DNA of 40,854 nucleotides from Verrucomicrobiales bacterium (lineage in GTDB: Bacteria; Verrucomicrobiota; Verrucomicrobiia; Verrucomicrobiales; DEV007): contig JARGOZ010000050.1 of assembly GCA_029213025.1 (NCBI GenBank), forward strand, positions 1 to 40,854. The letters are read 5' to 3'. Below are positions 9,152-39,852 of the stretch, piece by piece. Numbering within the stretch: position 1 is the stretch's first letter; every line of letters begins with the position of its first letter. The notes beneath the pieces are model-generated. The model made no database searches. It worked only from the letters and a program-made list of their open reading frames with translations, and was not told where the DNA came from. The position numbers and the translations under genes were made by a program.

Positions 9152-10477
9152 TCATACCGGTTGATAGTTTTCCATTTTTGAGGTGACAGAGGCGGAGAAA
9201 AGCCATGGTCCAATTGTGTCGGATCTTTCGAAACCGGAGTCGTTGAGAACCAGCGAGTTTTTCGACAGGCGGGCGAGATCGAATTGCAAAAGATCGTTCA
9301 GCTCGGGAAAATCGCTCATAGCGTCGGTTCGGAAATACTTGCGGTAGTCCGCCAGGGATAAGCCGTCGATTCGCAGCAAAGATTTCATCAGGTAGCGACG
9401 CTTTCTTTCCTGTTCGGAAAGGTGACATCCATATACCGCATGACTGTGTTCATCCAGAGTTCGGCAACTGTAATCGGCGATGATTTCATTGATGCCGTTT
9501 CTTCCTACAGCGTATTCGGTGCAATAGTGTAGTCCGGTAGTATATGATCTCGCGCCTGCGCCGATGCCCACCATGCCGTCTTCCTGGCAGCAGTATACAG
9601 GGCCTCCGGTAATTGCTGAATCCTGTTTCCGGAACAGACGCATAGAAATCTGTTCATATCCATTCTCGCGGAGCAAATCCCGCCCGGTCCGGAACAGATC
9701 AATTCGATGGTCTGCCGCAGTGCGTCCGGTTTTTTCCAGGCCTGTTAATGGACGAACATACAGGGGATAGAGATAGATTTCTTCCGGTTCGTAGCGTAGC
9801 GCTTCGTTTATGGAATTCTTCCACGTCGATGTAGTTTGTATATCGGCTCCGTAAATTAAATCGATATTCATGACTTCGACGCCCGAGTGACGAATCGTTT
9901 CCAGTGCCTGGTGCACCTGCGGTAGTTTTTGAGGCCGGCCGAACGCTTTTGTTTCCTGTTCAAGAAAACTTTGAACGCCAATGCTGAAGCGGGTAATTCC
10001 TTGTCCCACCAAAAACTTGAGTTTTTCTTCAGTCACAGTTGCGGGCGATAACTCAAAGGAGAACGGCATAACTTGCGGAGCGTACCCGGGAAGCTTGTCC
10101 AGTGACTGGAACAGCGTCTCCAGTTCTGATAAAGTCAGGAAACTGGGCGTTCCACCTCCCACCGCGCCTCTGGTGAACCGGGCGCCGGAGGTAAGGTAAT
10201 TTCCCGCGGCCTCGATTTGAGTATCTACGGCAGCGAGATAGCGACTTACTATATCTTCTCCCGGATTGGTTGTAGTAAAAAGGTTGCAGAACCCGCAACG
10301 CATCTCGCAAAACGGGAGGTGAAGATAGAGGTATAGACTGCTCTGATCCTCGGAGTCCCAGATTTGTCGTAGCGGGATTGGCTGGTCAAAGTGGCGATAA
10401 GCCGTTTTGTGTGGATACGCGTAGGCATATCCCTGGTAGGGTTGATCTTTTAGCCTCTCCTGTAGGGTTTGTGCCAT
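9152..10477 (-). CDS. STM4012-family radical SAM protein (HemW-like)
   Basis: This 441-residue enzyme has the radical SAM motif C57-x3-C61-x2-C64 in 'LHLPFCEMRCGFCNLF', then 'GGGTPSFLTLSELE', 'FELSPATVTEEKL', 'ITRFSIGVQSFLEQE' and 'NIDLIYG', the layout of HemN/HemW-type proteins. HemW itself is a heme-handling protein; this branch keeps the fold but belongs to the STM4012 family that clusters with STM4011 and STM4013. Its product is unknown. The ATG at 10477 follows directly on the stop codon of the sulfatase-like gene, so the two are in one transcript. Similarity to coproporphyrinogen oxidase means automatic pipelines may call it hemN or hemW; the gene neighbourhood argues against that. Confidence 0.87.
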   Translation of the reverse strand: MAQTLQERLKDQPYQGYAYAYPHKTAYRHFDQPIPLRQIWDSEDQSSLYLYLHLPFCEMRCGFCNLFTTTNPGEDIVSRYLAAVDTQIEAAGNYLTSGARFTRGAVGGGTPSFLTLSELETLFQSLDKLPGYAPQVMPFSFELSPATVTEEKLKFLVGQGITRFSIGVQSFLEQETKAFGRPQKLPQVHQALETIRHSGVEVMNIDLIYGADIQTTSTWKNSINEALRYEPEEIYLYPLYVRPLTGLEKTGRTAADHRIDLFRTGRDLLRENGYEQISMRLFRKQDSAITGGPVYCCQEDGMVGIGAGARSYTTGLHYCTEYAVGRNGINEIIADYSCRTLDEHSHAVYGCHLSEQERKRRYLMKSLLRIDGLSLADYRKYFRTDAMSDFPELNDLLQFDLARLSKNSLVLNDSGFERSDTIGPWLFSASVTSKMENYQPV

Positions 10478-11275
10478 TTAGGTATATTTTGGTAGCAGGG
10501 TTTCCATATAGGGCACAGTGTAGACCGCTTCATGACCGATTCGGTGTCCGGTGAAGCCTTCTTCTCCGTATAAGGTTCCGTGATCGGAACACGCAATCAC
10601 AAAAGTATCGCTGCGGGATTGGAAGATATCGAAAAGGGCGGGAATGCACGAATCCACATAACGCAGAGCGGCCGCATGGCTTTTTAGATCATCGTTAGTT
10701 TTGCCTTCGATATAGCAACAGTTGGGTTGGTGAATGGCACTGATGTTCAGGTAAAAGAATATCCGTTTTTCTTCGGCTACGGATGCAAAACATTTGCGGG
10801 TGACAGAGATTTGATTTCCCGTTGATTCCGGATCGGTGACACCGGTTGCCTGAGACCAGTGAGATTCGTCAAAAAAATTGGGCAGGACACAACTAAGCGC
10901 AGTCTGCTTGTTAAAAAAGCCCACGCCACCGACACAGATGGAATGATATCCTTCGTTCCGTAATCCGCTTATAATGTCCGGTTCAGGGAAAGATTTCGTG
11001 TTTGATCCGGCCGTCTCGCTTCCGGTAAACTGTGACGCGAAAAGCCGCTCCTGACTCTTTGCCGGCTGCGCCGGTGTCGGGAGGAATCCGGCAAAAAACG
11101 CGTGGTGAGCCGCGTAGGTAAAACTACCCGGGCTGTGCCGTTTCTCCCAACCGGCGGGAAATATTTTTGCCAGATTCGGAGTTCTGCCGGCTTCGAATTC
11201 TTCGGTCGCGACGTCGTAGCGAAGTGTATCGAAAACAAGGAATGCAATGTCGGCATGTCCTACGATTTTATTCAT
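10478..11275 (-). CDS. STM4013/SEN3800-family alkaline-phosphatase-fold hydrolase
   Basis: From the ATG at 11275 this is a 265-residue protein of the sulfatase/alkaline phosphatase superfamily. The N-terminus has 'AFLVFDTLRYDVA' with a metal-site Asp, then 'TPNLAKIFP'. The end has 'ACSDHGTLYGEEG' and 'GHRIGHEAVYTVPYMETLLP', supplying the other metal ligands. It lacks the C/S-x-P-x-R formylglycine sequence of true sulfatases; the corresponding stretch reads 'SPGSFTYAAHHAFFAGF', so a Ser or Thr nucleophile is likely. There is no signal peptide, so it should be cytoplasmic. The start is fixed by an ATGA overlap with the upstream HAD gene; a longer frame to 11374 is less likely. Confidence 0.85.
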   Translation of the reverse strand: MNKIVGHADIAFLVFDTLRYDVATEEFEAGRTPNLAKIFPAGWEKRHSPGSFTYAAHHAFFAGFLPTPAQPAKSQERLFASQFTGSETAGSNTKSFPEPDIISGLRNEGYHSICVGGVGFFNKQTALSCVLPNFFDESHWSQATGVTDPESTGNQISVTRKCFASVAEEKRIFFYLNISAIHQPNCCYIEGKTNDDLKSHAAALRYVDSCIPALFDIFQSRSDTFVIACSDHGTLYGEEGFTGHRIGHEAVYTVPYMETLLPKYT

Positions 11276-11898
11276 ATTATACCCGGACATATTTTCTCCA
11301 ATTCTACTGGTGTACGGATTAGTATATCGGCTTCCTGTGGTGCGTTTACCGGTGCTTCCGGCGTTATCCAGCACGTTTGGAAACCGGCTGTATGGGCTCC
11401 CTGAATATCGTTGGCAAAATGATCACCTACATAGAGAATCTCGTCGGGGCGGGATTGTAAAGTTTCGGCGAGTCTTTGGAAGGCGCGTCGATCAGGTTTC
11501 GCGCAACCGATTTCCTCTGATATGACAATGGCGTCCGCCTGGAACACTTTGTCGAGTCCGGTTTGTTTCAGTTTAGCTCTTTGAAGCGTTGAATTGCCAT
11601 TGGTTAAAATCGCCCTGGGAACGGTAATGCGCGTCAGGAAATTGTTTGTAGGGCGATCGGGTACGAAAAAAGAGGGGAATTCCCGGCAAAATTTCTGCCA
11701 CAGTGTTTCCGCATCAGAGCTGCCATCGGATAAATACTGAAAGAGTTCTTCACGTGAGCCATGGCCTTGGTCGTCAATCTGCAATGCCTCATTGTGGTTC
11801 GCGAGTGGGAACCAACGCGTTAGCAGACGGAGGAAAGCAGCATCTCTGTCGATGAGGGTGTTATCGAGGTCAAAAGCGATGGCAGAAAACGGTAGCAT
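11272..11898 (-). CDS. HAD-superfamily phosphatase within the STM401x-like cassette
   Basis: The 208-residue protein shows the four HAD motifs: FDLDNT with nucleophile D10 and acid D12, 'AILTNGN' (motif II), 'GCAKPDRRAF' (motif III Lys) and 'YVGDHFANDIQGA' (motif IV). A helical cap lies between motifs I and II, as in subfamily IA phosphatases such as phosphoglycolate phosphatase or YjjG. It is the first gene of the minus-strand operon and overlaps the next start by ATGA. Related clusters, as I recall them, contain an ATP-grasp-like STM4014 instead; none is seen here, so this gene may fill a local role. The substrate cannot be told. Confidence 0.85.
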   Translation of the reverse strand: MLPFSAIAFDLDNTLIDRDAAFLRLLTRWFPLANHNEALQIDDQGHGSREELFQYLSDGSSDAETLWQKFCREFPSFFVPDRPTNNFLTRITVPRAILTNGNSTLQRAKLKQTGLDKVFQADAIVISEEIGCAKPDRRAFQRLAETLQSRPDEILYVGDHFANDIQGAHTAGFQTCWITPEAPVNAPQEADILIRTPVELEKICPGII

Positions 11899-14112: not shown

Positions 14113-14152
14113 ATTAAACAGGGTACAGTTTCGGATTGTACCCTGTTGAGTC
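14113..14152 (+). repeat. AACAGGGTACA repeat, locus B, as an inverted pair
   Basis: AACAGGGTACA (14117-14127) and its exact complement TGTACCCTGTT (14137-14147) flank a 9-bp loop, followed by GAGTC as in locus D. The pair lies between two convergent genes and could act as a bidirectional hairpin terminator, although no T-run follows on the plus strand. A decayed third unit may start at about 14155. Confidence 0.8.
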
Positions 14153-23954: not shown

Positions 23955-24494
23955 ATGTCATCCGAAGCGACCTCATCTGATTTTCATGAACCTTTTGTCC
24001 GTGCTCTCACGAGGCACGAAAGGGTCATCCGCGCCTACATTCGCGGGGCCGGGATCACCCGTCCGGAGGATGTCGATGAAATCATGCAGGAGGTTTCACT
24101 GGTGGCCTGGCGGAAATTTGACCAATTGGATAACGCGGATGAATTTCCGGTTTGGGCCTGCGTCATTGCCCGCTACGAAATCCTGATGTTCCGGCGAAGG
24201 CATGCCCGGGATCGATTGGTGTTCAGCGAAAAAGTTTATGAGCTGCTGGCTGAACAGTCGCTGGAGGAAGTTTCCTCGAGTATGAAGGAAAAGCGGCTCA
24301 ATCAATTACAGCAATGCGTGGAAAATTTACCACCTGCGAGTCGTGAGTTGGTAACGGCAGCGTATCAGCCGGGATCGACGATAGACAAATTGGCGTCGCA
24401 ACTCGGGAAGAAGACTAACACTGTTTATCAACAACTCTGGCGTATCCGGCGTGCGCTGGAGCAGTGCGTTGAAGAGAGGCTGGAGGCCGAGTAA
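23955..24494 (+). CDS. ECF-type RNA polymerase sigma factor, PVC-specific group
   Basis: The 179-residue protein has only regions 2 and 4. Region 2 includes 'RPEDVDEIMQEVSLVAWRKFDQL' (core binding and -10 recognition) and 'PVWACVIARYEILMFRRRHARD'. Region 4 is the helix-turn-helix 'STIDKLASQLGKKTNTVYQQLWRIRRALEQCV' near residues 141-171. The pattern fits the Rhodopirellula/Verrucomicrobium family of ECF factors. Such factors are usually held at the membrane by a protein encoded next to them, here the gene at 24711. The downstream DUF1592 and DUF1552 genes are likely under the same control. Confidence 0.92.
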   Translation: MSSEATSSDFHEPFVRALTRHERVIRAYIRGAGITRPEDVDEIMQEVSLVAWRKFDQLDNADEFPVWACVIARYEILMFRRRHARDRLVFSEKVYELLAEQSLEEVSSSMKEKRLNQLQQCVENLPPASRELVTAAYQPGSTIDKLASQLGKKTNTVYQQLWRIRRALEQCVEERLEAE

Positions 24495-24599
24495 GGGTTA
24501 TTTTGCCGGTTAACAATTGTAAATGAATAGTAAGAAGAAAGGATCGAGACGAAAGTTGCTTGTGCATTCTTTACCAACAAAAGATTGGCAAAAACATTG

Positions 24600-24670
24600 T
24601 TGGGCAAAATCATCACCTATTCATTGCGGTAGTTGTATAAAAGCTCAATGCATCGGCCATGATTTTGCTA
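24600..24670. repeat. Palindromic element copy 1 (sigma / anti-sigma gap)
   Basis: The left arm reads GGGCAAAATCATCACCTATT and continues CATTGCGGTA; the right arm ends CAATGCATCGGCCATGATTTTGC. The arms pair imperfectly along about 25 bases around a short A/T-rich loop. An extra half-core, ATTGGCAAAAACATTG, lies just before it. Copies 2 and 3 share both arms. Confidence 0.82.
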
Positions 24671-24679
24671 ATCAATCAA

Positions 24680-24696
24680 CTGGAGCCAACCTCCAG
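24680..24696 (+). promoter_or_regulatory. Small hairpin in leader of anti-sigma gene
   Basis: CTGGAG and CTCCAG pair perfectly around a five-base loop (CCAAC), followed by TTTA, 14 bases before the ATG at 24711. A TATAAT hexamer (24705-24710) touches that ATG and is too close to be its promoter. The hairpin may attenuate translation or transcription between sigma and anti-sigma genes. Confidence 0.35.
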
Positions 24697-24710
24697 TTTA
24701 CCTATATAAT

Positions 24711-25715
24711 ATGAAAAGAAGTGATCTACAGCTTATTGAGGATTACCTCGATGGTACCATTTCTCCCCGGGATTTGGAGGTTTTGAATGAACTGCTCGAA
24801 AGCGATGCTACTGCACGCGAACGTTTCCTCTCCCTGGCAACGATGGACGAGGGTTTGCAGGATCTCGCTGTTACTCCCTCTATTGTCACCGACTGTACAG
24901 GGTACAATGGTGGAGTGTACCCTGTACGATCCGGGAGTGTACAGGGTACAGTTGGCGGAACGCGTGCCCTTTTATCGCGGCCAATCGTAGCGGCGGCAGC
25001 CGGTCTGATACTCGGTGTGTTTTTTACATCAGCGATCTGGGCCGCCACCGAAACCGGTAGGCAAAAAATCCTCACTTTATTTCACGACAGCTTTGAATTT
25101 GGATCCCCGCCTGTCCCTGTCGGCGGACCGGTAAACCCGGATGCGTGGGGTGGCGACTATGTAGAGATTTCCGGAGCGACTTCCGGTATTGAGCCCATCC
25201 ATGGCGAGCGCATGCTGCGTTTTTTGCGGGCTGACTATGAGGGCAAGGAAGATGCAGTCGGCTATATGAGCGATATCTACCGGGTGATCGATTTGAAAAA
25301 GTATAGTTCCCGGTTTGCGGACGGCAATTCAGTTGTTGCGGTAGAAGCTGATTTCGGGTCGGTCCCGCTCGATGACGCTGATCGCTTTTTTGCCAACCTT
25401 TCCGTTTATGCTCTGGCGCAGGTACCGACAAACACCCAATCGTGGCAGGTATTGATTGGAACTCCCCGTCGGATGGAGGAGGTGGCACTGGCATCAGCAC
25501 GTCGCAGCCGGGGGCTGGAAGGGTCACCCGGAATGTCGTGGCAGAAGTTGAGTTTGGAAATGCGCCTGCCACAGGAAACCAACTATTTACTGATTGGATT
25601 GCACACAGGCGACCGACTGGCTGCCGGGGAGAGCGGTTCTGAAACCCCGCCAGCAGTCCAGTTTGAAGGGCAGTTTGTGGACGATGTCAAAGTGAAGCTG
25701 CGGCGGGGGATTTGA
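24711..25715 (+). CDS. Membrane anti-sigma factor (FecR-like organisation) carrying an in-frame repeat insertion
   Basis: The 334-residue protein has a helical cytoplasmic N-terminus (residues 1-55, 'LQLIEDYLDGTISPRDLEVLNELLESDATARERFLSLATMDEGL') typical of anti-sigma proteins paired with PVC ECF factors. A single membrane helix follows near residues 93-112. The extracytoplasmic part (about 120-334) is beta-rich and has a 'FEFGSPPVPVGGPVNPDAWGG' opening that resembles carbohydrate-binding-like sensor domains rather than classic FecR. Residues about 60-83 are encoded by three 22-bp repeat units (24894-24950), forming a Gly-rich linker. It follows the sigma gene by 216 bp, which contain a palindromic element. 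Confidence 0.8.
   Translation: MKRSDLQLIEDYLDGTISPRDLEVLNELLESDATARERFLSLATMDEGLQDLAVTPSIVTDCTGYNGGVYPVRSGSVQGTVGGTRALLSRPIVAAAAGLILGVFFTSAIWAATETGRQKILTLFHDSFEFGSPPVPVGGPVNPDAWGGDYVEISGATSGIEPIHGERMLRFLRADYEGKEDAVGYMSDIYRVIDLKKYSSRFADGNSVVAVEADFGSVPLDDADRFFANLSVYALAQVPTNTQSWQVLIGTPRRMEEVALASARRSRGLEGSPGMSWQKLSLEMRLPQETNYLLIGLHTGDRLAAGESGSETPPAVQFEGQFVDDVKVKLRRGI
24894..24950 (+). repeat. 22-bp-period repeat, locus C, inside the anti-sigma coding region
   Basis: Three cores begin exactly 22 bp apart and alternate in orientation: TGTACAGGGTACA (24894-24906), TGTACCCTGTACG (24916-24928) and TGTACAGGGTACA (24938-24950). Three units equal 66 bp or 22 codons, so the reading frame is preserved. 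They encode a linker containing CTGYNGGVYPVRSGSVQGTV. Confidence 0.87.
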
Positions 25716-25778
25716 GTTTTTCGAATCGTCGGGCTGTGACCAAAGTTTCGTCGCGTTGGCTGGCTCGGCTGGATGAAA

Positions 25779-25852
25779 TTTGGCAAAATCATTACCGGTG
25801 CATGGCAAACTTTTGATAATATTGCTGTGAATGAGTAATGATTTTGCCGAAA
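25779..25852. repeat. Palindromic element copy 2 (anti-sigma / DUF1592 gap), opposite orientation
   Basis: The element begins TTTGGCAAAATCATTACC and ends GTAATGATTTTGCCGAAA. The perfect terminal pairing GGCAAAATCATTAC/GTAATGATTTTGCC is the longest of the three copies. The arm containing ACCGGTGCAT is on the left here but on the right in copies 1 and 3, so this copy is inverted. The remainder of the gap 25716-25937 shows no feature I can support. Confidence 0.85.
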
Positions 25853-25937
25853 ATCCACACAACCCCGGCCCTTTCCTTTTTTCAATTATTTCATAAGATT
25901 TCCGCAGCTCCGGCAGTCACTGGCCGGAACTATCGTC

Positions 25938-28658
25938 ATGATCCGCAATTTTTCTGTCATCATTTTCTGTCTGACTCTCAGCTCACAACTCCGGGCCGGG
26001 ACAGCTGAAGTCACCATGCCTGGCGAGCACCGCGCTCTGCTGAAAACTCACTGTTATCAGTGCCACAACGCCGACAAACAAAAGGGTCGCGTCCGTCTCG
26101 ATGACCTGCCTTTAACCATCGCCAACGTTGAAACCGCCGAACGCTGGCAGAAAATCCTCAATGCACTGAACGCCGGCGAAATGCCGCCGGAGGATGAAGA
26201 TCCGTTGCCGAATGATGCCAAAACTGAATTTCTTGACGATCTTTCCAATCTCATGGTGGCCGCACGTGATCGACTGAGCGATCAGGGCAGCTCCGGCACG
26301 CTTCGGCGACTAAATCGACGTGAATACCAAAACACACTGCGCGAGTTGCTGGGCGTGGAGATCGCGGTCGGCGAACTGCCCGCCGACACCGGTTCCGGAA
26401 ATTACGACACGGTGGGCTCCAATCTTTTTATGTCTGCCAACCAGTTCGAGCAATACCTTGCCCTGGGACGGCAGGCACTGGACAAGGCCTTCGAACGCGA
26501 ACTGATGGCTGACGAAGAAAGATACTGGCGCTACGAAACGGAGGAAATTTCAGAGAAAGTCGCGAAACATGTGAAATGGCAGGTCGATGCGAAGGATCGG
26601 GCGGAACGCTGGGTCGCCGCGGTGGAAGAAGCCGCCGCTCGACCGGAAAATGCGGAGATCGTGGCGAAGCTTCGCGAGCAGGTGAACAATCACGAAGAAA
26701 AATTCCGCCGACTGTGGGCGCAGATCCCGGGAGCCCCTTCACCTGAATCCTTTGGTTTCGAAACGGTGGAAAACAATGCCGACAAAGCTCACGCTGCGCG
26801 CCGTTCCTACTGGCTGCCCTATCATCAATATTATCTTCAGCAACCCCACATCGACAAGGGGATGTATCTGGCACTCCAGTCGGAACATCCATCGATCCTG
26901 GAAAACGGAGCCATTACGTTTCTGGTTGGCTGGAGTGCGAAAACCGGTGGCAAATGGCCTGCAGGTAATTATGTCATTCGCGTTCGTGCCGCTCTTACGG
27001 GGGATGGGACTCCGGAGCGCAGATTCCTCGAATTCGGCGTCAATCCGCGCGGCAGCCAGGCATTAAGCGTCCACGAAGTCACGGGTACCATGGATGAACC
27101 GCAGGTCATCGAAATACCATTCTATTTTAGCGACACAAACGCGGAGCGCGCCGATCGCAGTCTATACATTCGCGAAAAAGGCACTCACGACCACTACCTG
27201 ATCACCCGTCTCATCGCGAAGGAAGGGGCGAAGCAGATGGAGATTGGATTGGGACGGCCCTATGCCATGTGGGTTGACTGGGCGGAGATCGAACGAATAC
27301 CGGATACTGATCGCCAAACGCCGCCGGGACTTACCATGCTCGATCCGTTGCCGCTGGATGAAAAGACCAAAAAATCCATGCCTTCGGTTGAAGAAGTTCG
27401 AGTTGCTTTGGAACGATTTTCTAAAGAAGCATTTCGGGGCCGCGATCCTGGCGAAAAATATATCGACGGTCTGATTGGAATCTATGAAACCCGTCTCGAA
27501 AGAGGTGATCATTTTGTCTCAGCGTTGAAGGACAGTTTGGCCATTGCGCTTTCGTCACCCATGTTTCTCTATTTAACTGAGCCATCGCCCGATCAGAAAA
27601 CCCGCCCGTTAACTGATATAGAATTGGCAACGCGACTGTCTTATTTCCTGCACGGATCGCAGCCGGACCCGAAACTCAGACGGTTGGCAGAAGCAGGAAA
27701 ACTTTCCAGGCCTGATGTGCTTTCTGCACAGGCCAGCCGCCTTTTGGATGATCCCCGTTCGCGAAGGTTTTCCGACTCATTTACCTATCAATGGCTGGGG
27801 CTCGACCGGCTCGATTTCTTTCAGGTGGATTTGCAGAAACATCGCCGTTTTGACAACGGTACCAAGATCGCCGCACGAGAGGAAATTTACCAAACCGTGA
27901 ACTATCTGCTTCATAACAACCTGAGTGTGGTCAATCTGCTGCAATCCGACTTTGTCTTCATCAACGCAGTTCTTGCCGAATACTACGGAATCCCCGGAGT
28001 GACCGGAGATCAGTTTCGACGTGTGCCGCTGCCCGCCAAGTCGCCCCGCGGAGGATTACTTGGCATGGCCGCTGTCAGTCTGATGGGAGGCAATGGCGAA
28101 GAAACCAGTCCGGTCGAACGGGGAGCCTGGGTATTGCGCAAACTTCTCAATGACCCGCCACCTCCCGCCCCGGCGAACATCCCTCAGTTGGCGCGATTGG
28201 CCGGGCAGGTATTGACAACCCGGGAGCGTCTCAGTGCCCATCAGGAAGAAGCGCAATGCGCCAGCTGTCATCGCCGCATTGATCCAATCGGCATGGGCCT
28301 GGAGAACTTCGACGCGGTCGGTGCCTGGCGCACCGAGAATACCTATGTAGTAACCGATGATAATGGTAAACCCGTCGCCGGTAAAGAGAAGACCTGGACC
28401 ATTGATCCGTCCGGTCAGCTACACAACGGTCCCGCCTTTGATGACTACTTCGAGCTCCGCGACATCATCGCGGCGAAGCAGGACGACTTTGCTCGCGGTA
28501 TTACCGAAGGCCTGCTGGAATATGCCCTCGGTCGCCCCGTCGGTTTCCGCGACGAAACGCTGGTCGATTCGGTGGTCGAACAGGCCAAACAAAATGATTA
28601 TGCATTTCGTGCGTTTCTTGATGCGATTGTGACCAGTAAAGAATTTAGAAGCCGATGA
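25938..28658 (+). CDS. Planctomycete-type cytochrome c / DUF1587-DUF1592-DUF1588-DUF1585 protein
   Basis: The 906-residue exported protein has a signal peptide (MIRNFSVIIFCLTLSSQLRAG) and then a heme c motif CYQCH at residues 39-43 in 'LKTHCYQCHNADKQKGRVRLDDL', typical of the PSCyt1-like module. DUF1587 follows ('LRRLNRREYQNTLRELLG' near 123). A long middle region is next, then DUF1592 ('RPLTDIELATRLSYFLHGSQPDP'), DUF1588 ('GLLGMAAVSLMGGNGEETSPVERGAWVLRKLLNDPPPPAPANIPQL'-type, with CASCH near 773) and a C-terminal DUF1585. These proteins are abundant in PVC bacteria and occur with DUF1552 partners, as here; an oxidative role in polymer breakdown is suspected but unproven. Confidence 0.9.
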   Translation: MIRNFSVIIFCLTLSSQLRAGTAEVTMPGEHRALLKTHCYQCHNADKQKGRVRLDDLPLTIANVETAERWQKILNALNAGEMPPEDEDPLPNDAKTEFLDDLSNLMVAARDRLSDQGSSGTLRRLNRREYQNTLRELLGVEIAVGELPADTGSGNYDTVGSNLFMSANQFEQYLALGRQALDKAFERELMADEERYWRYETEEISEKVAKHVKWQVDAKDRAERWVAAVEEAAARPENAEIVAKLREQVNNHEEKFRRLWAQIPGAPSPESFGFETVENNADKAHAARRSYWLPYHQYYLQQPHIDKGMYLALQSEHPSILENGAITFLVGWSAKTGGKWPAGNYVIRVRAALTGDGTPERRFLEFGVNPRGSQALSVHEVTGTMDEPQVIEIPFYFSDTNAERADRSLYIREKGTHDHYLITRLIAKEGAKQMEIGLGRPYAMWVDWAEIERIPDTDRQTPPGLTMLDPLPLDEKTKKSMPSVEEVRVALERFSKEAFRGRDPGEKYIDGLIGIYETRLERGDHFVSALKDSLAIALSSPMFLYLTEPSPDQKTRPLTDIELATRLSYFLHGSQPDPKLRRLAEAGKLSRPDVLSAQASRLLDDPRSRRFSDSFTYQWLGLDRLDFFQVDLQKHRRFDNGTKIAAREEIYQTVNYLLHNNLSVVNLLQSDFVFINAVLAEYYGIPGVTGDQFRRVPLPAKSPRGGLLGMAAVSLMGGNGEETSPVERGAWVLRKLLNDPPPPAPANIPQLARLAGQVLTTRERLSAHQEEAQCASCHRRIDPIGMGLENFDAVGAWRTENTYVVTDDNGKPVAGKEKTWTIDPSGQLHNGPAFDDYFELRDIIAAKQDDFARGITEGLLEYALGRPVGFRDETLVDSVVEQAKQNDYAFRAFLDAIVTSKEFRSR

Positions 28659-28663
28659 AACAA

Positions 28664-28748
28664 ATTGGCAAAATCATCACTCATGCATTGCGGTAATTTT
28701 TTTGGACTCAATGCACCGGTAATGATTTTGCCCCCAAATGATTTTGCC
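28664..28748. repeat. Palindromic element copy 3 (DUF1592 / DUF1552 gap) plus extra half-core
   Basis: The full element spans 28664-28733: left arm TTGGCAAAATCATCACTCAT then GCATTGCGGTAA, and right arm GACTCAATGCACCGGTAATG then ATTTTGCC. A further right half-core (AAATGATTTTGCC) lies at 28736-28748. Orientation agrees with copy 1. The element begins five bases after the DUF1592 stop codon. Confidence 0.85.
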
Positions 28749-28766
28749 TGAAATACCCAACAACCT

Positions 28767-30059
28767 ATGAAAAACAGACGCCACTTTCTCAAATCCAGTA
28801 CCGCATGCATTGCGTTGCCCTTTCTCGAGTCCCTGGGGTTTCGTCGATTTGCTTCGGCTAATCCTACGCCGGTAACTCCACCCAAACGTCTGGCCTTTTT
28901 GGGCTTTGGTTGGGGCGTTACCGACGAAAGCTGGTGTCCCGATATCAATACTCCCGGTGCGGACTACGTGCTTCCCGAAGGCCTGAAACCGCTGCAGAAG
29001 CACAAGTCCGATTTTTCCGTCGTTCAGGGAATGTGGAACCAGTTTTCGGTGGAAGGGCATGCGGGCAGTACCTGGTGGTTGTCCGGTGCTAACAAGTTTG
29101 GTCAACCTGGCCAAAGTATGCACAATTCTATATCAGCTGACCAGGTAGCAGCTGAACAGTTGGGTATGCATACGCGATTTGCATCGCTGCAATTAAACTG
29201 TAGCAAAAGTGCCGAAGCATCCGGTCACGGTCCCGGGCTGTCCATGGCATGGGATCGAAACGGTAAGCCTGTCGCGGGATTGAATGATCCGGTTCAAGTT
29301 TATCATCAGCTGTTCTCGAAAGATGATGTGCCACTCGAAGAACAGCAGTCACGTCTCGCTGAAAAGCGCAGTGTTCTCGATACGGTAATGGAAAACGCGC
29401 AATCCCTCCGGCGCGGGCTCGGCCAGGATGATACCGAAAAGCTGGAGGAGTATTTCCAAAGCATTCGCGACATCGAAACCCGGCTGAGTAAAGAAGAACA
29501 ATGGATCGGTGTAGCGAGGCCGGAAGCTCCTGTTATCGAGCCGCGCAAGGGCATCACCGGCAAAGAAGAAGTGCGATTGATGTATGATCTGCTGATTGCC
29601 GCATTCCAAACCGACAGCACCCGCGTCATTACCTATCGGCAACCGGGAGGCCATGGATTTCTCGAGAGCCTTGGGGCCAAAGTTCATCCGCATGATATGA
29701 GTCACTATCATTCCACTCGCGGCGAGAAACTGGCAGCCTCTCAAAAACGGGATCTGACCAACAGCACACTACTTGCCGGCCTTCTCGATCGCCTGAAGGC
29801 AACGAAAGAGGCTGATGGTAGCAGTTTGTTTGATAACATCGCTTTGGCTTACGGCAGTAACATTCGTACCGGACACGAATTGACCAATTGTCCAACGCTC
29901 ATCACCGGCGGAGGTGCAGGTATCAAACTGGGCGAAAATATAGTCGTGTCCAAAGATACCCCGCTATGTAATTCCTGGCTGACGATGCTTCACGGAGTCG
30001 GGGTAAAAGTCGAGCGCCACGGTGACAGCACAGGGATTTTGAAGCAGATTCTGGTGTAG
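28767..30059 (+). CDS. DUF1552 domain protein, Tat-type signal
   Basis: The 430-residue protein starts 'MKNRRHFLKSSTACIALPFL', an RRxFLK twin-arginine-like signal, so it is exported folded and probably with a cofactor. 'PKRLAFLGFGWGVTDESWCPD', 'FSVVQGMWNQFSVEGHAGSTWWLSGANKF', 'SADQVAAEQLG', 'LSMAWDRNGKPV' and 'LMYDLLIAAFQTDSTRVITYR' are the usual DUF1552 landmarks. The family is always found next to DUF1592-type proteins in PVC bacteria and belongs to the DUF1501-like alkaline phosphatase superfamily. The biochemical function is unknown. It shares the sigma-factor operon. Confidence 0.9.
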   Translation: MKNRRHFLKSSTACIALPFLESLGFRRFASANPTPVTPPKRLAFLGFGWGVTDESWCPDINTPGADYVLPEGLKPLQKHKSDFSVVQGMWNQFSVEGHAGSTWWLSGANKFGQPGQSMHNSISADQVAAEQLGMHTRFASLQLNCSKSAEASGHGPGLSMAWDRNGKPVAGLNDPVQVYHQLFSKDDVPLEEQQSRLAEKRSVLDTVMENAQSLRRGLGQDDTEKLEEYFQSIRDIETRLSKEEQWIGVARPEAPVIEPRKGITGKEEVRLMYDLLIAAFQTDSTRVITYRQPGGHGFLESLGAKVHPHDMSHYHSTRGEKLAASQKRDLTNSTLLAGLLDRLKATKEADGSSLFDNIALAYGSNIRTGHELTNCPTLITGGGAGIKLGENIVVSKDTPLCNSWLTMLHGVGVKVERHGDSTGILKQILV

Positions 30060-30082: not shown

Positions 30083-30625
30083 ATGAGAATCCTGGGATTC
30101 ATGTGTTTTGCAGTGGCAATTTTGTGCCCGGTTGGTTCAGGAGTAAGAGCGGACGAAGCTTATATTCCAACTATAGCGGCGGATTGTTTTATTTTTGAAT
30201 CGCGTTCCGAAAAAGTGTTGGCGGAGGCTAAACGCCTGCTGATCGGGAAAATAAAGGACTTGAAGTTTTCCGGGACGGAAGCGCCACTCTACATTCCCGA
30301 TGATCATGGTGGCAAGAAAGCAAAAACGGCTGGTAAATGGTTCCGTCTGACCAAAGGGCCGGATGCGGAATCCCACCTTTCGCTGGCCCGTGATGGTCAT
30401 CAAATTCATGTTAAGCTCTGGATCGCAGTATCGAACAAAATCAATACAGACAGGATTAAAAAGGCGAAGGCTGAATTGGGGTTAATCGAATCCGGATTTG
30501 AGCTTATCGGGTTTATGGAGGAAATCCCGGAGGCCAATGAAGCAGCCGAACAAAAGGTGCGTGAAATCGGGCATAATCTCATGGTCACCCGGCGAATGAT
30601 ATCTCACCGGATTTCTCAGCAATAG
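30083..30625 (+). CDS. Secreted hypothetical protein
   Basis: The 180-residue product has a signal peptide (MRILGFMCFAVAILCPVGSGVRA, cleavage near residue 23). The mature part is a mixed alpha/beta domain with many Lys and Glu residues and no cysteines that could form disulfides apart from one early Cys. I do not recognise a family. It begins 23 bp after the DUF1552 gene and is probably the last gene of that operon, so it may be an accessory subunit of the DUF1592/DUF1552 system. The following gap (30626-30790) shows only a small CAGAC/GTCTG dyad. Confidence 0.65.
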   Translation: MRILGFMCFAVAILCPVGSGVRADEAYIPTIAADCFIFESRSEKVLAEAKRLLIGKIKDLKFSGTEAPLYIPDDHGGKKAKTAGKWFRLTKGPDAESHLSLARDGHQIHVKLWIAVSNKINTDRIKKAKAELGLIESGFELIGFMEEIPEANEAAEQKVREIGHNLMVTRRMISHRISQQ

Positions 30626-39756: not shown

Positions 39757-39792
39757 GGTATCAGGGTAGCCATTTTCCCGGGAATCGCAAAT

Positions 39793-39849
39793 TGTACCCT
39801 GTTAAGTCCGGGACTGTACCCTGTTAAGTCGGCCATTGAACAGGGTACA
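39793..39849 (-). repeat. 22-bp-period repeat, locus D
   Basis: Two direct units TGTACCCTGTTAAGTC start at 39793 and 39815, exactly 22 bp apart. An inverted core AACAGGGTACA lies at 39839-39849. The array fills the gap between the C39-like gene and fxsA and ends three bases before the fxsA stop codon, so it could form a 3' hairpin on the fxsA transcript. Confidence 0.87.
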
Positions 39850-39852
39850 ATG

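Follow-up and report, generated by a model that had tools for sequence, protein, structure and literature searches.

Palindromic elements in three gene junctions of a Verrucomicrobiales operon, probable members of a repeat family linked to long GxxExxY/PDDEXK_3 nucleases

The window, by which we mean the whole stretch of DNA analyzed here, comprises 40,854 nucleotides on one contig (C261) of a Verrucomicrobiales bacterium whose genome assembly (G000; 7.88 Mb in 338 contigs) is ~95% complete. An operon of interest lies on its forward strand and includes genes for an ECF-type sigma factor (23955..24494; Sigma70_r2 and Sigma70_r4_2), a putative anti-sigma protein (24711..25715), a DUF1592/PSD-type protein (25938..28658; PF07631, PF07627, PF07624, PF07626, PF07637 and PF07635) and a DUF1552 (HXXSHH) protein (28767..30059; PF07586). 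The putative anti-sigma protein had no Pfam match and is named from its operon position; it has orthologs in relatives. The gaps between the four genes measure 216, 222 and 108 nt, and each holds an imperfect palindrome of ~66 bp. Copy 1 (core 24603-24669) and copy 3 (core 28667-28732) are in the forward orientation, and copy 2 (25782..25848) is in the reverse orientation; the first-pass annotation had placed the three cores to within 3 nt. It had also described an element in every gap of the operon, which is correct for the three junctions it named but not for the next gap, the 23 nt between the DUF1552 gene and the ORF at 30083, where no element was found.

The terminal inverted repeats of the copies are at least 11 bp in length. 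Those of copies 2 and 3 are the perfect pair GGCAAAATCAT/ATGATTTTGCC first reported for all three elements (11-bp ends in copy 2), but the right end of copy 1, ATGATTTTGCT, has one mismatch. An additional half-site was observed 16 bp outside copy 1 (GGCAAAAACAT, 24587-24597) and another 16 bp outside copy 3 (ATGATTTTGCC, 28738-28748), extending these elements to 24587..24669 and 28667..28748, respectively. The half-sites are therefore doubled at a spacing of 15-16 bp in copy 1 (24587/24603) and copy 3 (28722/28738), and single in copy 2. Across the window there were 33 half-site matches with up to 2 mismatches, versus 19 ± 4 in shuffled sequence. Folded as RNA, all three copies form hairpins that beat shuffles (copy 1, -20.5 kcal/mol, z -2.9; copy 2, -30.6 kcal/mol, z -6.8; copy 3, z -4.6). 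After removal of the half-sites, copies 1 and 3 still show a clear relationship in direct orientation (0/1000 shuffles reached the score), and a weaker one links the reverse complement of copy 2, treated in the same way, to copy 3 (1/1000) and to copy 1 (4/1000). The three copies thus share a common descent, with the middle one inverted, as had been proposed. Searches with Rfam covariance models returned two sub-threshold microRNA chance matches to the elements and nothing else.

The earlier observation that the element occurs nowhere else in the window proved true of the genome as well, within the ~95% that is assembled. A blastn search with 85 nt of copy 3 recovered the three window copies and nothing more, and the paired half-site pattern was present only at copies 2 and 3. 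A further 22 lone GGCAAAATCAT 11-mers in the genome had no partner arm, and most of these appeared to be coding sequence. The genome-wide palindrome search that had been recommended as a check accordingly returned a single cluster, and three elements within 4.2 kb have a probability of ~1e-6 under random placement, which is excluded. A second palindrome family, TGTACCCTGT..ACAGGGTACA, often with TCCGGGAC between the arms, is scattered in the same genome (68 half-site matches in 367 kb of its sequence). It occurs in the window at 14117-14147, 24916-24950 and 39791-39851, and one copy is inside the putative anti-sigma coding sequence.

Placement of this kind, with one copy at each of three junctions and a stable RNA hairpin in each, is improbable by chance and is what might be seen if the elements were cis-regulatory or RNA-processing hairpins specific to this operon and selected to set the stoichiometry of the sigma factor, anti-sigma and two DUF proteins. 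The genome has 33 DUF1552 matches in all, about 30 of them besides that of the window, and none of the 30 paralog regions had the palindrome. Orthologous operons in relatives, located via the putative anti-sigma protein, also had no palindrome, either in the closest relatives (59 to 47% identity) or in more distant ones. The distances from the elements to stop and start codons vary between copies, no intrinsic terminator (a GC stem followed by a T run) was found at any of the three elements, and, as described below, the family occurs elsewhere in unrelated operons (hisD-hisC, peptidases). For these reasons we do not uphold the suggestion that the elements are retained to control mRNA processing or stoichiometry in this operon type, and we consider operon-specific regulation an unlikely explanation of their presence. 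Given the strength of the RNA hairpins, it is possible that the elements have some effect on the mRNA. The gaps in the orthologous operons range from an overlap to 29 nt. As these gaps are both compact and free of palindromes, the elements in the window must have entered the operon in this lineage. Consistent with this, the paired pattern was exclusive to the window's own genome among 387 genomes of the order. Elsewhere in this genome, beside one DUF1552 paralog (L085), CGTTCCTGGTTC..GAAGAACCAGGAACG inverted repeats were observed at the 5' end of each of two consecutive ORFs (9896-10000 and 11194-11292), a further example of repeats amplified at neighboring gene starts.

When 84,980 species were scanned, each represented by one genome, 29 matching stretches were found, a few of which were chance matches in coding sequence. 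The remainder were mainly from PVC bacteria, including Verrucomicrobia, Pontiellaceae, Pelagicoccus, Lentisphaerae and a MAG labelled Methylacidiphilum, and most had doubled half-sites, GGCAAAATCAT-N4/5-GGCAAAATCAT, facing inverted copies. Six genomes had between 84 (a Pelagicoccus MAG) and 5 such doublets (31, 10, 9 and 8 in the others), compared with 1, that of copy 3, in the window's own genome; a reversed-pattern control gave 0 in every genome. In Pelagicoccus, the sequence separating half-sites varies, yet the linkers of the two arms are often complementary, and some copies at different loci have near-identical interiors over their whole length, which indicates that units have been copied. 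The Pelagicoccus elements are also clustered relative to random placement, both within 1.5 kb (p 0.0065) and within 4.5 kb (p 0.004). In general the half-sites are better conserved than the interiors, and with half-sites masked the likeness of the window interiors to outside copies was not beyond shuffles, although it was suggestive for G389. No match to the element was found in phages, plasmids or viral contigs. The best reading of these sequence comparisons is that the window palindromes and the outside doublets likely represent one dispersed family with an ~11-bp half-site as its building block.

In Pelagicoccus, one pair of doublets brackets a gene for a 267-aa GxxExxY/PDDEXK_3 protein between hisD and hisC, and four more genomes have such a doublet-bracketed gene. 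We call this protein the long form (~265 aa), and a profile built from seven such proteins identified it in 29/387 genomes of the phylum, with 1-3 genes per genome. It was present in 5/6 genomes with at least five doublets, a rough comparison with the phylum sample because the six genomes are from another collection. A Lentisphaerae genome (G391) also has doublets, but no long form was recognized in it. When genes from the 387-genome scan were combined with those at further loci, 31 had usable flanks, and strong flanking inverted repeats were found at 30 of these (0/100 shuffles), almost all consisting of two tandem half-sites at 15-16 bp. The terminal repeats at gene-bearing copies are 27-33 bp. 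The 30 include a weak match, L311, whose repeat is of a different kind; the remaining gene (L328) had no flanking repeat that beat shuffles in the stretch examined. At 17/23 loci where both neighbors could be seen, the long-form gene is co-directional between genes of the same strand. At one locus (L334, G041:C7) a complete doubled-half-site hairpin, rather than a single arm, is present on each side of the gene, and at another (L325, G642:C179 20932-21116) half-sites form a tandem array with a 16-bp period beside the gene. Strong repeats were less frequent at short or truncated forms of the gene (6/26) and were mostly of another type. Several short or truncated GxxExxY genes (L284, L285, L286, L305, L347 and L349) are flanked by a different inverted tandem repeat (e.g., CCACGAAGGCACGAAGGACACAAAG, GCCGCGGATTGGCGCGGATGAAACGCGGATG), which suggests that additional dispersed repeats may be linked to the PDDEXK_3 family at large.

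The half-sites at long-form genes differ widely in sequence. The ends at four loci (L293, L294, L295 and L308) are GGCAAAATCAT, identical to the half-site of the window, and others include CAAAATCAT, CAGAATCAT, CAGGACGAT, GTAAAAAGAT and CAAACGAAT. This variation tracks the protein, as genes with more similar proteins have more similar repeats (Mantel r 0.48, 0/2000 permutations). Dispersed doublets follow the gene in the same way. In genomes whose gene bears CAGAATCAT ends there were 11 (G576), 15 (G642), 4 (G730) and 3 (G426) CAGAATCAT doublets, with some counts including the gene's own ends, versus 0 in three genomes (G387, G390 and G392) whose gene has CAAAATCAT ends; this search was one-way, for CAGAATCAT only. 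The dispersed CAGAATCAT doublets often have the linker of the gene itself, GGAAG in G576 and TTTACG in G730. There were zero doublets in 200-kb samples, which are too small for a full count, from four genomes with other repeat types (G041, G594, G418 and G414), so copy number is probably often low.

The long-form protein matches PF13366 (E 1e-18), and its AlphaFold model (pLDDT 91, pTM 0.83) has two successive helix-helix-strand-strand-strand-helix-strand-strand units. The best structural match to the N-domain is the Cas4-like protein SSO0001 (4ic1; Z 9.2, rmsd 4.1, 104 aligned). Of the candidate catalytic residues, D79, K91 and Q103 are present in 28/28 sequences and E89 and Y107 in 27/28. 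With this predicted core fold and its D, ExK and QxxxY residues, the protein can be placed in the PD-(D/E)XK nuclease superfamily. The C-domain has no ExK residues in the sequences aligned, and the N and C halves align with each other over 96 columns (hhalign P 1.6e-4; the reversed control gave nothing). Modelled alone, the C-domain (pLDDT 82) resembles restriction-endonuclease-like folds at Z 5-6, a match that is unconvincing by itself. Judged from these models, the long form consists of a catalytic domain of the Cas4/RecB type joined to a second, degenerate copy of that domain, and such a fused pseudo-dimer would be an attractive match for a reader of doubled half-sites. Sequence searches found no solved structure of the long form, and neither PADLOC nor PHROGs gave a match for it.

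The identity of this gene bears on several other explanations of the palindromes. Because they are short, palindromic, intergenic and dispersed, and because the window's own genome has 12 Y1_Tnp matches, they could be classical REP/BIME elements moved by a RAYT (Y1 HUH) transposase. However, the flanks of these 12 genes and of about 30 other Y1 (PF01797) genes did not have the GGCAAAATCAT palindrome and held other, mostly GTAG-type, repeats; the copies seen end in GGCAAAATCAT/ATGATTTTGCC or close variants and have no GTAG/CGTC foot; and the gene that does match is a PD-(D/E)XK protein. The Y1-gene flanks and the missing foot contradict an association with a RAYT, and we regard this origin as highly improbable. 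An ordinary REP/RAYT system coexists in the genome, where we noted GTAG-type REP palindromes GTAGATCAAGTTGCC.. (L082 47-122) and GTAGAACAGGTTGCC.. (L190 1316-1392), the latter beside a Y1 match. The first-pass annotation had advised looking for a transposase with matching terminal repeats. A cognate gene with such ends does exist in other genomes, but it encodes a GxxExxY nuclease of the PD-(D/E)XK type and not a classical transposase.

The elements might also be miniatures of a standard DDE insertion sequence, with the PD-(D/E)XK gene as a passenger, as they are dispersed, have terminal inverted repeats of 27-33 bp and in some cases have copied interiors. In the loci examined, no gene for a DDE transposase had these doubled ends, and no gene other than the long PDDEXK_3 was seen between such repeats (30/31 long-form loci). 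Its protein also co-varies with the repeat sequence. Further, there was no sign of target-site duplication: at 28 gene-bearing copies, direct repeats in the flanks averaged 2.07 bp, compared with 2.11 bp in shuffled pairs. A DDE parent is therefore very doubtful in our opinion. We give similarly little weight to the proposal that the repeats are immobile binding sites of the nuclease (e.g., for autoregulation or self-protection). The greater conservation of half-sites than of interiors and the co-variation with the protein would be expected of such sites, but near-identical whole units occur at different loci of one genome, the insertions are lineage-specific, and the window has three copies that are related to one another and share an operon, with no gene for the protein, all of which points to copying.

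That gene is absent from the rest of the window's own assembly too, as there were 0 matches to PF13366 and 0 to the long-form profile in the ~95% available. The enzyme gene may have been lost, may never have been present or may be located in the ~5% that is missing. A cognate enzyme gene is not required for REP-like families to persist, and its absence here consequently weakens the mechanism proposed for the window, not the sequence relationship.

We hypothesize that the palindromes of the window belong to a nuclease-linked family with a lifestyle similar to that of REP/RAYT, in which a PD-(D/E)XK fused dimer is the cognate enzyme, and that they are orphan, non-autonomous copies that multiplied locally in a single operon; we consider this explanation probable. 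That the enzyme mobilizes the repeats is suggested by their association, their co-variation and the likeness to REP/RAYT. The fused-dimer nuclease would recognize its own doubled half-sites and nick or cut the hairpin-forming repeats, and host repair or replication would then copy short hairpin units to new places. Host functions would be needed for the copying step because a PD-(D/E)XK enzyme alone joins no strands. New copies would be placed preferentially nearby, at junctions of co-transcribed genes. In the window, one element may have entered the operon and been copied to neighboring junctions, once in inverted orientation, and with the enzyme gene now absent an orphan cluster would have been left. 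Local copying fits the clustering seen in Pelagicoccus as well as the relatedness of the three window copies in their interiors. Two suggestions made at first pass, that the elements were amplified locally and that they are MITE-like, are supported by the shared descent of the copies, their absence from orthologous operons and the dispersal of the family in other genomes.

A broader proposal seems to us evenly balanced: PVC and related bacteria would have a class of mobile palindromic elements not described before, with the long GxxExxY/PDDEXK_3 proteins as its enzymes. Such an enzyme would be a pseudo-dimer with one active and one dead domain; it would read the doubled half-sites and disperse short hairpins to the junctions of operons, leaving no target-site duplication. 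The wider GxxExxY family, whose short forms often have other tandem inverted repeats at their flanks, may do likewise for additional repeat families. We found no paper in the open-access literature tying GxxExxY or PF13366 to palindromic repeats. If true, the proposal would provide a function for GxxExxY proteins, a family with almost no open-access literature, and would mean that the lifestyle of REP/RAYT evolved a second time, around an unrelated nuclease. It would also explain many anonymous palindromic repeats of PVC genomes, and as repeat and protein co-vary, it offers a testable nuclease-target code. The window illustrates the repeated expansion of gaps within one operon.

These elements have parallels in several known systems. 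REP/RAYT systems have an HUH-Y1 enzyme and 20-40 bp stem-loop repeats with a GTAG or CGTC tetranucleotide at the foot (PMC3733652, PMC6006769), and TnpA-REP cleaves and rejoins REP sequences (PMC6006769). Like REP/REPIN-RAYT "REPtrons", the family described here has short intergenic hairpins dispersed in the genome, one or few cognate nuclease genes that are flanked by the same repeats and appear stable rather than amplified, and no target-site duplication. It differs in that its putative enzyme is a PD-(D/E)XK fused dimer rather than HUH-Y1 and its repeats are doubled 11-bp half-sites at 15-16 bp; it falls outside REP/RAYT, because neither a Y1 association nor a GTAG/CGTC foot was found. With regard to REP/BIME dispersal, the window's own genome has only three clustered copies, and the family is dispersed elsewhere, as with the 84 doublets in Pelagicoccus. 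TIRYTs are tyrosine transposases with long terminal inverted repeats (PMC3733652), and they are similar in that long inverted repeats enclose a nuclease gene and also occur as repeat families of moderate abundance, but the nuclease fold and repeat architecture are different. The elements resemble MITEs in being short, non-coding and non-autonomous, with terminal inverted repeats and some shared interiors. They are not standard MITEs, as no target-site duplication or DDE parent was seen, and their interiors are mostly divergent. Within the GxxExxY family (TIGR04256; PDDEXK_3, PF13366), doubled half-sites are absent from the ~130-aa forms, which often have a repeat of a different kind. The long form shares the family domain, with its invariant or near-invariant D, ExK and QxxxY residues, and is distinguished by a second, catalytically degenerate copy of that domain.
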